Made by a program: the position numbers and the translations under genes
Shown: piece by piece, positions 30,497-34,391 of the stretch
Numbering within the stretch: position 1 is the first letter of the stretch
Layout of the letters: each line of letters opens with the position of its first letter
The notes under the pieces: model-generated
The model's input: the letters and a program-made list of their open reading frames with translations, nothing else
Database searches by the model: none
Told to the model about the DNA's origin: nothing
From: Lacibacter sediminis
GTDB lineage: Bacteria > Bacteroidota > Bacteroidia > Chitinophagales > Chitinophagaceae
Direction of reading: 5' to 3'
Assembly (NCBI RefSeq): GCF_014168535.1
Contig: NZ_CP060007.1
Span: 434,001-498,000 of the forward strand
Length of the DNA: 64,000 bases

Positions 30497-31381
30497 ATGA
30501 ACAAGTTTACCATCAAAGACCTAGAAAATTTAAGTGGCATTAAAGCCCACACGATCCGTATTTGGGAGCAACGTTATTCGTTCCTCAAACCACAACGTAC
30601 GGCTACGAATATCCGCTATTACAGCAACCTTGAATTGAAGATGTTGCTGAATATCTCATTACTCAATAAATACGGGTTTAAGATCTCACATATCAACCGT
30701 ATGAGTAATGACGAGTTGCGTGAAAAAACGCTTACACTCACGAGTGCTGAGGCACAGCAGGAGCGGATTGTAAATGAACTCATCCAGCACATGGTTGATG
30801 TGGAACTGGATGGATTTGAAAAAGTGCTTGATCAGTACATTCAGTTAAGAGGCGTTGAAAAAACCATCACTTATATCATCTTTCCTTTTTTGGAACGAAT
30901 TGGTATACTGTGGCTCACTGATCATATTAATCCTGCTCAGGAGCACCTCATCACAAATATCATCAGGCAAAAGCTGATCGTGGGTATTGACAATGCAATT
31001 ACTCCACTTTCACTTAAAACAAAAATGCTTCTTTTCTTACCTGAGAATGAGCATCATGAACTTGGCTTACTATTTCTTCAGTATATGCTTAAGAGCCGTG
31101 GAGTGAAAGTAATTTACCTCGGGGCAAATGTTCCGGTTAAAGACCTGGAGTATATTGTTGAGTTGAAGAAACCTGATTTCGTTTATACCCACCTCACAAC
31201 AGTGATCAAGGAATTTAATTTCGATAAATTCATTAATAACCTGAAAATCCGGTTGCCTCATCAGCAGATCATCATTTCAGGTCTGATGGCCCAAACTTTT
31301 CAGAAAAAACCGATCCCTTCCAACTTCCGTTTTCTGAAGTCGTTTTCTGAAGTAAACGAATTCCTTGGCAGTTTGACATAA
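30497..31381 (+). CDS. MerR-family regulator with cobalamin-binding domain (CarH/LitR-like photoreceptor)
   Basis: A 294-residue protein. Residues 4-70 are a MerR winged helix (FTIKDLENLSGIKAHTIRIWEQRY). The middle is a B12 cap helical bundle. Residues 175-290 are a cobalamin-binding Rossmann domain. Decisive motifs are W139-x9-E149-H150, the CarH/LitR signature that caps the adenosyl group of AdoCbl, and E185-x-H187-x-x-G190, where H187 sits as the lower-axial ligand (classically D-x-H-x-x-G). In known homologues dark AdoCbl-bound tetramers repress carotenoid genes and light releases them. The adjacent ECF sigma and crt genes fit that role. Confidence 0.9.
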   Translation: MNKFTIKDLENLSGIKAHTIRIWEQRYSFLKPQRTATNIRYYSNLELKMLLNISLLNKYGFKISHINRMSNDELREKTLTLTSAEAQQERIVNELIQHMVDVELDGFEKVLDQYIQLRGVEKTITYIIFPFLERIGILWLTDHINPAQEHLITNIIRQKLIVGIDNAITPLSLKTKMLLFLPENEHHELGLLFLQYMLKSRGVKVIYLGANVPVKDLEYIVELKKPDFVYTHLTTVIKEFNFDKFINNLKIRLPHQQIIISGLMAQTFQKKPIPSNFRFLKSFSEVNEFLGSLT

Positions 31382-31406
31382 TCTAAACAACAGAATTTAT
31401 ACGTAG

Positions 31407-31433
31407 ATCCCTCCATACAGGAGGGATTTTTTT
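31407..31433 (+). terminator. Rho-independent terminator after the MerR-B12 gene
   Basis: A perfect 8-bp stem, ATCCCTCC with GGAGGGAT, and a 5-nt loop (ATACA), followed at once by a T run. It lies 26 nt after the regulator stop, so the regulator and the sigma/crt operon are probably separate transcripts. Confidence 0.85.
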
Positions 31434-31453: not shown

Positions 31454-31484
31454 TGTTTAACTTTTCATGTATAATTCTTAAACA
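31454..31484. promoter_or_regulatory. Palindromic site 1, TGTTTAA-N17-TTAAACA (candidate operator)
   Basis: A 31-bp site with perfect 7-bp inverted arms. Its spacer begins CTTT and contains GTATAA, as in the second copy 56 bp downstream. It lies between the terminator of the MerR-B12 gene and the sigma gene, just upstream of the putative -33 TTTG at 31489. Binding by the CarH-like protein is inferred, not shown. Confidence 0.6.
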
Positions 31485-31488
31485 AAAA

Positions 31489-31521
31489 TTTGGCAGACTC
31501 ATGATTGTTTGTTTAACTTTA
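31489..31521 (+). promoter_or_regulatory. Candidate promoter of the sigma/crt operon
   Basis: TTTG at 31489-31492 and TAACTTTA at 31514-31521 (one base off the Bacteroidota -7 consensus TAnnTTTG) are 21 nt apart, which is within the reported spacing range. Transcription would begin near 31526, giving a leader of about 22 nt before ATG 31548. The -7 box lies inside palindromic site 2. Confidence 0.45.
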
Positions 31522-31540
31522 CGGTATAAATAATTAAACA
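31510..31540. promoter_or_regulatory. Palindromic site 2, TGTTTAA-N17-TTAAACA (candidate operator over the promoter)
   Basis: The second 31-bp copy has the same 7-bp arms and the same 17-nt spacer length as site 1, with CTTT and GTATAA again in the spacer. It covers the putative -7 element and start point of the ECF sigma gene and ends 7 nt before its ATG. This is where a repressor would block transcription. Confidence 0.6.
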
Positions 31541-32059: not shown

Positions 32060-33550
32060 TTGGCTCAACAAGCAATCGTTATTGGCAGCGGCTTTGCCGG
32101 CATGTCTGTGGCTACTTTTCTTGCACATGCAGGATGGGATGTTACTGTATTAGAAAAGCATGATCAACCGGGGGGCAGGGCACGCCAACTGAAGGCTGAT
32201 GGGTTTACATTTGATATGGGCCCGAGTTGGTACTGGATGCCCGATGTGTTTGAACACTACTTCAACCAGTTTGGAAAAAAAGTAAGCGATTATTACGAGT
32301 TGAAAAGACTCGACCCTTCTTATCGCATCTATTATCCTAATGAGATTATTGATATTCCTGCAGATTATGATGGAATGAAGGCCTTGTTCGAAACGATTGA
32401 ACCTGGCGCAGGCAAGAGGCTCGATCAGTTTATGGATGAAGCAGCCTATAAATATGAAGTTGGAATAAATAAACTCGTGTACAAACCCGGGTTATCAATA
32501 ACAGAGTTTGCAGACATGGAACTTGTGAAGGGCATTTTTAAGTTAGATGTCTTTGCCTCTATGAAAACGCATGTTCGAAAATATTTTTCTGATCCACGCT
32601 TGCGTGAGCTGATGGAATTTCCCGTTCTTTTCTTAGGCGCTTTGCCCGAAAAAATTCCAGCTCTTTACAGTCTCATGAATTATGCTGATGTAAAACTGGG
32701 AACATGGTATCCGATGGGTGGCATGCACGAGATCGTTAAAGCAATGCATCAACTGGCCGAAGAAAAAGGGGTAAAATTCTTATTCAACCATAATGTTGAA
32801 AGCATCAGCATCGCCGGTGAAGAAGCAACCGGGGTTGTGGCAAACGATACCTATTTTGAAGCTGATGTGGTGATCAGTGGGGCAGACTATCATTTTACTG
32901 ATACAAAATTGTTACACCATCACGAGCAGTCATATTCAGAAGCATACTGGGAGAACAGAGTAATGGCGCCTTCTTGTTTATTGTATTATGTCGGGATCAA
33001 CAAACGGCTGACCAATGTGCCGCATCACAGTCTGTTCTTCGATACAGATTTTGAACAGCACGGGAAAGAGATTTATGATGATCCGAAATGGCCATCTGAT
33101 CCGTTGTTTTATGTGAGCGCAACAACTGTTACCGATCCATCAGGTGCACCGTCAGGTTGCGAAAACCTTTTCTTCCTTATTCCTGTCGCATCGGGTTTAA
33201 CTGGGGATACTGAGGAAATAAGAGAACAATATTTCCAGCAAATTATTCATCGTTTTGAGCAGCGGATCGGTGAACCAATTCTTGATTCCATTGTTTATAA
33301 AAAGTCATACTCTGTAAGCGATTTCGTATCGGATTACAACGCATTCAGGGGAAATGCTTACGGATTGGCAAATACCTTGATGCAAACGGCTATTTTAAAA
33401 CCAACTTGCCGCAGCAGAAAAGTAGCCAACTTGTATTATACAGGTCAATTAACAGTGCCCGGGCCGGGAGTGCCGCCAAGCCTGATCAGTGGAGAAGTGG
33501 TGGCCAAACTGGTAAATAAACAATTCGCAAAAAAAAAGCAACACAGTTGA
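32060..33550 (+). CDS. crtI: Phytoene desaturase
   Basis: A 496-residue FAD-dependent desaturase converting phytoene stepwise to lycopene. It has the dinucleotide-binding VIGSGFAGMSVATFL at residues 7-21, GGRARQLKADGFTFDMGPSWYW, and the C-terminal carotenoid-desaturase signature NLYYTGQLTVPGPGVPPSLISG. The start is TTG 32060, 11 nt after the sigma gene. The gap to crtB is 4 nt, so sigma, crtI and crtB form one operon. A second desaturase of the same superfamily is encoded at 34939. Confidence 0.94.
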   Translation: MAQQAIVIGSGFAGMSVATFLAHAGWDVTVLEKHDQPGGRARQLKADGFTFDMGPSWYWMPDVFEHYFNQFGKKVSDYYELKRLDPSYRIYYPNEIIDIPADYDGMKALFETIEPGAGKRLDQFMDEAAYKYEVGINKLVYKPGLSITEFADMELVKGIFKLDVFASMKTHVRKYFSDPRLRELMEFPVLFLGALPEKIPALYSLMNYADVKLGTWYPMGGMHEIVKAMHQLAEEKGVKFLFNHNVESISIAGEEATGVVANDTYFEADVVISGADYHFTDTKLLHHHEQSYSEAYWENRVMAPSCLLYYVGINKRLTNVPHHSLFFDTDFEQHGKEIYDDPKWPSDPLFYVSATTVTDPSGAPSGCENLFFLIPVASGLTGDTEEIREQYFQQIIHRFEQRIGEPILDSIVYKKSYSVSDFVSDYNAFRGNAYGLANTLMQTAILKPTCRSRKVANLYYTGQLTVPGPGVPPSLISGEVVAKLVNKQFAKKKQHS

Positions 33551-33554
33551 GCTT

Positions 33555-34391
33555 ATGATGCATGTTTTTCATGAAGTATCTCAGTTATGCAGTCGCAACA
33601 CTACGGAGCGATACAGTACTTCGTTTTCATCAGCCATCCGTCTGTTGCACCAGGATTTACGTCAGCCGATCTATAATATTTACGGGCTGGTACGTTTTGC
33701 TGATGAGATCGTTGATACATTTCATGAGCACGATAAAGCCACACTTATCAAAGATTTTCGCCAGCAAACCTTTGAAGCTATTGAACGTGGCATCAGTTTA
33801 AACCCTATTCTCCATAGTTTTCAACTCACGGTTAACCAGTATGCTATTGATCATGAATTGATCCATGCTTTTTTCAACAGTATGGAAATGGATCTTGAAA
33901 GAACACAATACAATCACAAAACCTATAATGATTATATCTACGGCAGTGCAGAAGTTGTGGGGCTGATGTGCCTGTATGTTTTTCTTGAAGGTGATAAAGT
34001 GCAGTACGAAAAACTGAAACCATCTGCCCGTTCGTTAGGAGCAGCATTTCAGAAAGTGAATTTTCTTCGTGATGTGAAAGCGGATTATAACCAACTCGAC
34101 CGAACTTATTTTCCCGGTCTCGATTTTTCGAATTTTACCGAGCGGCAAAAAAGGGAAATTGAAGAAGATATCCAGAAAGATTTTGATGATGCTTACGAAG
34201 GCATCATGCAACTTCCTTCCAAAGCACGTTTTGGCGTGTACGTAGCCTATAAATATTATCTCTCACTTTTCCGTAAGATCAAACGACTGCAGCCCGCCAC
34301 CATCATGCATGAGCGGGTGCGTATCCCCGATTATCACAAGGTGATGATCCTGTTAAGAGCCGGTGTTCGCAACCAGCTTAACATTATGTAA
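33555..34391 (+). CDS. crtB: Phytoene synthase
   Basis: A 278-residue trans-isoprenyl diphosphate synthase joining two geranylgeranyl diphosphates to phytoene. The two aspartate-rich regions are RFADEIVDTF (D-E-I-V-D, near residue 50) and FLRDVKADYNQLDRTYFP (near residue 180). YSTSFSSAIRLL near residue 20 is the usual N-terminal substrate motif. Two ATG codons are adjacent (33555 and 33558); the first is chosen. Geranylgeranyl diphosphate synthase is not in the window. Confidence 0.94.
   Translation: MMHVFHEVSQLCSRNTTERYSTSFSSAIRLLHQDLRQPIYNIYGLVRFADEIVDTFHEHDKATLIKDFRQQTFEAIERGISLNPILHSFQLTVNQYAIDHELIHAFFNSMEMDLERTQYNHKTYNDYIYGSAEVVGLMCLYVFLEGDKVQYEKLKPSARSLGAAFQKVNFLRDVKADYNQLDRTYFPGLDFSNFTERQKREIEEDIQKDFDDAYEGIMQLPSKARFGVYVAYKYYLSLFRKIKRLQPATIMHERVRIPDYHKVMILLRAGVRNQLNIM

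Follow-up and report, generated by a model that had tools for sequence, protein, structure and literature searches.

Two copies of a 31-bp palindrome, TGTTTAA-N17-TTAAACA, lie at the promoter of a carotenoid-linked ECF sigma factor gene in Lacibacter sediminis, and across the Chitinophagaceae the presence of this site follows the presence of a gene for a MerR-type, B12-binding regulator homologous to CarH. We consider it likely that the palindromes are operators of this regulator, which in its AdoCbl-bound form would occlude the sigma-crt promoter in the dark and vacate it in the light. The site contains the half-site of known CarH operators in an inverted arrangement, and the sequence comparisons point to a previously undescribed DNA-site geometry for B12 photoreceptors of this class.

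Paired palindromes at a sigma factor promoter

The window analyzed is a stretch of 64,000 nucleotides of the L. sediminis genome, and coordinates are those of the window unless a contig or locus is named. The region of interest contains the following features.

30497..31381, + strand: MerR-B12 regulator, CarH homologue and proposed operator binder (Pfam MerR_1, B12-binding_2 and B12-binding)
31405..31429, + strand: hairpin and T run resembling an intrinsic terminator, 3' of the regulator gene and 5' of the operators (the region has two such hairpins, versus 1.3 expected by chance)
31454..31484, no strand assigned: putative distal operator, TGTTTAA-N17-TTAAACA, with inverted TnnACA half-sites (exact match)
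31489..31492, + strand: putative -33 element TTTG, read from the sequence, 21 nt before the -7 box
31510..31540, no strand assigned: putative proximal operator, TGTTTAA-N17-TTAAACA, which includes the -7 box and predicted start (exact match)
31514..31521, + strand: putative -7 element TAACTTTA (consensus TAnnTTTG), read from the sequence, coinciding in part with the proximal operator's left arm
31526, + strand: predicted transcription start, at about the center of the proximal operator (from the F. johnsoniae -7 register; PMC6847099)
31548..32048, + strand: ECF sigma factor, its gene proposed to be under operator control (Sigma70_r2 and r4_2)
32060..33550, + strand: crtI-type desaturase (NCBIfam CrtID, NF058655, above cut-off)
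33555..34391, + strand: crtB-like phytoene synthase (SQS_PSY)

An 11-bp gap separates the sigma gene from the desaturase gene, and the two are probably co-transcribed. The crtB-like gene is followed by genes for isopentenyl-diphosphate isomerase, a second desaturase and further carotenoid functions, in that order. The closest named relative of the sigma protein is from Lacibacter luteus (85%).

Both palindromes match the pattern without a mismatch, with equal spacers and 56 bp from start to start, exactly as a preliminary description of this DNA had reported. In the whole genome (one contig, 5,119,652 bp) there are three exact N17 copies, two of them in the window, and no exact N16 copy. When one mismatch was allowed, the N17 pattern occurred at 11 places, versus 3 for a backwards-read control. 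Several of the one-mismatch sites elsewhere in the genome are intragenic, and their neighbors are mixed. In 14 congeners, exact N16 or N17 copies numbered 32 in total, versus 5 for the control, and paired exact copies recur in most of these genomes. The preliminary description had named two observations that would speak against an operator, frequent occurrence at unrelated loci and lack of conservation upstream of orthologous sigma genes. The motif proved to be rare elsewhere, and it is conserved upstream of those genes (see below).

The placement of the two copies relative to the promoter also held up. The distal copy lies just 5' of the TTTG box, and the proximal copy covers the -7-like box and the likely start point; the consensus used here, TAnnTTTG, is taken from PMC6847099, which also reports the -7 register of F. 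johnsoniae. By that register, transcription would start near 31526, inside the proximal copy. The gap of 21 nt between TTTG and the -7 box is the commonest in the family, seen in 21 of the 38 cases in which TTTG stood 14-24 nt before the box. In 72 of 76 Chitinophagaceae loci, operator positions 5-12 carry a -7 box with at least five of the six consensus bases.

Other details reported for the spacers fared less well. The shared GTATAA is at operator position 16 in the distal site but 15 in the proximal site, and relatives do not keep it. Given the difference in register and the lack of conservation, it counts as incidental, has no evidential value and can be ruled out as a common functional core. 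The shared CTTT is present, but in the proximal copy it is part of the -7 box TAACTTTA rather than a separate element, which accounts for its conservation there. Equal spacers of 17 bp are found in both window sites and are not a rule, as relatives have 16 or 17 bp.

The neighboring regulator is a CarH homologue

By sequence and modeled structure, the regulator encoded upstream of the palindromes is a homologue of CarH. It contains a MerR DNA-binding domain together with four-helix-bundle and Rossmann B12-binding domains, and phmmer aligns it to CarH with an E-value of about 1e-21. An AlphaFold2 model (pLDDT 89) gave CarH as the best Foldseek match in the PDB (5c8d/5c8e). The adenosyl-capping motif Wx9EH is intact, with W139, E149 and H150 invariant in the alignment, and so is the ExHxxG motif of the lower-ligand histidine (E185-H-H187-E-L-G190). 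The protein did not reach the NCBIfam cut-off for the CarH equivalog (109.7 bits versus 400), so it counts as a relative within the CarH/LitR family and not as an equivalog by that model.

Conservation in the Chitinophagaceae

Orthologous sigma genes were located in a set of 149 family genomes, about 100 of which contain one, and the upstream DNA of 102 sigma loci was read. A proximal site with at most two mismatches was found at 80 of the 102 loci. The spacer was 17 or 16 bp in all of these sites but two. The arms are nearly invariant, whereas most spacer columns are near random, those of the -7 box excepted. A distal copy accompanies the proximal site at 50 of the 80 loci, and in 48 of the 50 it lies 53-58 bp away, center to center. 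When two bases of the -7 box were fixed as well, the pattern matched in 60 of the 149 genomes, with 5 matches in the control, and about 57 of its 69 distinct places are the sigma promoter. Several Chitinophaga loci (L223, L224, L225, L231, L234 and L237) have the sigma gene and a proximal operator without an adjacent crtI or merR; in those genomes the regulator may be encoded elsewhere.

Presence of the site depends on the MerR-B12 gene

Among family genomes encoding a close MerR-B12 homologue (E-value no higher than 1e-65), 74 of 76 had the proximal site, versus 4 of 26 among those without such a gene (Fisher p = 3e-16). Exceptions were few. Three of the four MerR-less genomes with a site are incomplete or have contigs cut near the site, and in the fourth (G036) the site is decayed, with two mismatches. 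Conversely, G086 and G113 have MerR and no good site. To allow for shared ancestry among the genomes, the test was redone on a tree of the sigma protein, leaving out incomplete genomes. All eight supported independent pairs that differ in MerR differ likewise in the site (sign test p = 0.008). In three same-genus pairs (G129/G036, G009/G110 and G108/G007), sigma was kept and MerR lost, and the site was lost or decayed. A second sample, 80 loci drawn from a different genome collection and overlapping in part with the first, gave a site in 52 of 54 loci with an adjacent MerR gene versus 10 of 26 without an adjacent one, where MerR may lie elsewhere in the genome.

Some genomes separate the site from the sigma gene. 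In G082 the sigma gene is absent, MerR is kept and the operator directly precedes crtI (L130:1501-1531). In G079, where crtI and sigma are not adjacent, a separate operator copy precedes crtI (L119:1501-1531), and in an f15 genome the site precedes merR (L254:1501-1531). These three arrangements exclude autoregulation by the sigma factor as the reason for the site. The f15 copy and one in G143 (C1:2869189-2869219) are about 30 bp upstream of the MerR-B12 gene, which suggests merR autoregulation in some lineages. In the window, no palindrome was found upstream of merR (5' of 30497), and autoregulation was rejected for this locus.

Apparent phasing of the promoter against the operator in other families

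The palindrome also occurs in at least six other families of the class, next to loci with MerR-B12, sigma and crtI genes. There it lies upstream of sigma, beside MerR and crtI, mostly with an N16 spacer, and it is absent from most sigma homologues without MerR nearby. The position of the TAnnTTTG box relative to the operator varies, being 15/16 in f19, f28 and f30, 5 in f17, and about -5 in f22, f29 and one f28 locus. Across families (L284-L304), box positions differ in steps of about one helical turn. At the level of sequence and over about 16 loci, the promoter appears to be phased against the operator in one-turn steps. That the operator stays fixed while the -7 box moves argues that the palindrome is a protein site independent of the promoter and not a promoter element.

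CarH-like half-sites in an inverted arrangement

In both window sites, each arm contains the TnnACA core, with the arms inverted and 24-25 bp apart. CarH recognizes the half-site nAnnTnnACAn, and known CarH tetramers bind it as tandem 11-bp direct repeats (PMC8156234, PMC9304148). The full half-site is present in both arms of the proximal copy; the right arm of the distal copy has only the core. Among the proximal sites of relatives, the full half-site is matched by all 76 left arms, a figure partly forced by the overlapping -7 box, and by 54 of the 76 right arms. Tandem TnnACA at 11 bp was found inside only 1 of 76 proximal and 4 of 42 distal sites, and no tandem partner at 11 bp was found outside the sites (0/236). 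With such partners absent inside and outside, a reading of the sites as tandem direct repeats was rejected. The half-site is therefore CarH-like and its arrangement is not.

The sites here share the TnnACA half-site with the CarH operators of Thermus thermophilus, Bacillus megaterium and Cystobacter, and they likewise overlap promoter elements, here the -7 box of a carotenoid-linked sigma gene. They differ in geometry, since the known operators consist of two to four tandem 11-bp direct repeats and those described here of inverted half-sites around a spacer of 16-17 bp, mostly as two copies that lie apart. The target, a sigma-first operon with a Bacteroidota-type promoter, is also unlike known CarH targets. 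Classical MerR operators are similarly palindromic, located at the promoter and bound by MerR-type DNA-binding domains, yet their half-sites are close together between -35 and -10, compared with 24-25 bp center to center here. A parallel in layout is the CarA/CarH operator at PB of Myxococcus xanthus, which is also long (about 55 bp), overlaps the promoter and is bound by two dimers, and in which inverted repeats were noted. Inverted arms were once proposed for CarA, but they are not conserved and were later reread as direct repeats (PMC9304148); in the sites described here the inverted arms are nearly invariant.

A search of the open-access literature returned no CarH/LitR operator in Bacteroidota, in keeping with the preliminary description, which knew of no such operator in the phylum. 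The same search returned no inverted-repeat CarH operator of this geometry.

Copies at other genes

The third exact copy in the L. sediminis genome (L003:1501-1531; C1:678178-678208) lies between a START-domain gene and a divergent gene for a second, RpoD-like (group 2) sigma factor, rpoD2. A terminator-like hairpin separates this copy from the RpoD-like gene. Other loci with this copy are L145, L149, L156 and L127. Among congeners it is found at rpoD2 in G084 (L145) and, judging by sequence likeness, probably also in G504 and G509; three other genera have it as well (G102, G061 with one mismatch, and G035). None of 40 further genomes had a copy at rpoD2 (chance rate, 6 per 4000 regions), and rpoD2 was rejected as a general target. 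By sequence, it is a real but lineage-limited putative second target. Separately, a one-mismatch copy was seen 10 bp upstream of a sufB-like gene (L006:1501-1531; C1:1050515-1050545). Only some congeners retain a degenerate left arm there, and we do not claim sufB as a further target.

A model for light control, and its alternatives

Repression in the dark with release by light is our best reading of the position of the sites and the homology of the regulator. In the dark, the MerR-type domains of the AdoCbl-bound regulator would hold two inverted TnnACA half-sites 24-25 bp apart. Occupancy of the proximal copy would mask both the -7 element and the point at which transcription of the sigma-crt operon starts, shutting out RNA polymerase. 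The distal copy, which ends just before the -33 region, would raise this occupancy, probably through contact between the two bound units. Light would break AdoCbl, so that the regulator lets go and the ECF sigma gene and the carotenoid genes behind it are transcribed. Physical binding, repression, release through AdoCbl and light, and cooperation of the copies are thus what we infer from the comparisons above.

Could the palindromes have arisen without function? The genome is A/T-rich, and at three mismatches the pattern is no commoner than in shuffles. Yet exact copies cluster at one promoter across genera while their spacers diverge, and this conservation refutes low-complexity coincidence, to which we assign a negligible probability. 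The site might instead be bound by some other factor or serve the ECF sigma factor as an autoregulatory element, given that it occupies a sigma promoter in nearly all cases. This we regard as very improbable, since 22 of 26 sigma orthologues in MerR-less genomes lack the site, losses of the two were coupled in every independent comparison, and crtI retains the site in a genome that lacks sigma. Moreover, an ECF sigma factor would read an asymmetric -35/-10 pair, not a 31-bp palindrome that shifts relative to the -7 box.

With the regulator accepted as the likely binder, the sign of its action and the way it spans the two copies have to be weighed. In Streptomyces, a MerR-B12 gene likewise sits beside an ECF sigma gene and carotenoid genes, forming a chain from MerR-B12 to ECF sigma to crt, and LitR is reported to promote litS transcription in the light (PMC12705666). 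The phylum is another and the likeness is one of gene arrangement, but by this precedent the sign of regulation could differ here, the same protein on the same sites acting as a light-switched activator of the sigma gene from the distal copy. A distal copy upstream of -33 is indeed common. However, many loci do without it, and conservation is strongest for the proximal copy, which spans the -7 box and start and on which a bound protein would be expected to obstruct polymerase; an activator thus seems improbable to us, and repression remains the preferred reading. Somewhat less improbable, though still unlikely, is that a single tetramer, through its four DNA-binding domains, bridges the two copies as one composite operator. 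Thermus CarH is a tetramer in the dark (PMC8156234), most congeners have pairs, and the copies in the Chitinophagaceae are spaced 55-57 bp apart. Against this, distal-copy distances in other families are 35, 44, 52 and 63-64 bp, 30 of the 80 Chitinophagaceae loci have no detected distal copy, and crtI and rpoD2 have single copies. The variable distance fits better with two separately bound, cooperating units, and it weakens the 56-bp spacing as a fixed tetramer ruler. Of the earlier suggestion that the paired sites suit a tetrameric CarH-like repressor, then, the CarH-like operator, rare and conserved at orthologous sigma promoters, stands, and the tetramer does not follow.

Significance

We give even weight, for and against, to a broader proposal, a second mode of DNA recognition by B12 photoreceptors. 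Class-wide in Bacteroidia, CarH-type proteins would bind inverted TnnACA half-sites 24-25 bp apart with two-fold symmetric DNA-binding domains, as opposed to the tandem mode in the Thermus crystal structure. The promoter would be set against the operator in one-turn steps, and the regulon of some lineages would extend to an RpoD-like sigma factor. If so, light would retune transcription via two sigma factors in those lineages. A CarH half-site in a new geometry is relevant to the way in which CarH oligomers offer their DNA-binding domains to the operator, and the 31-bp element, whose placement against the TAnnTTTG box can vary, could be put to use as a green-light switch for genetic work in Bacteroidota. 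For a phylum rich in pigmented bacteria, the site is a sharply defined, testable candidate operator for B12-based light sensing.
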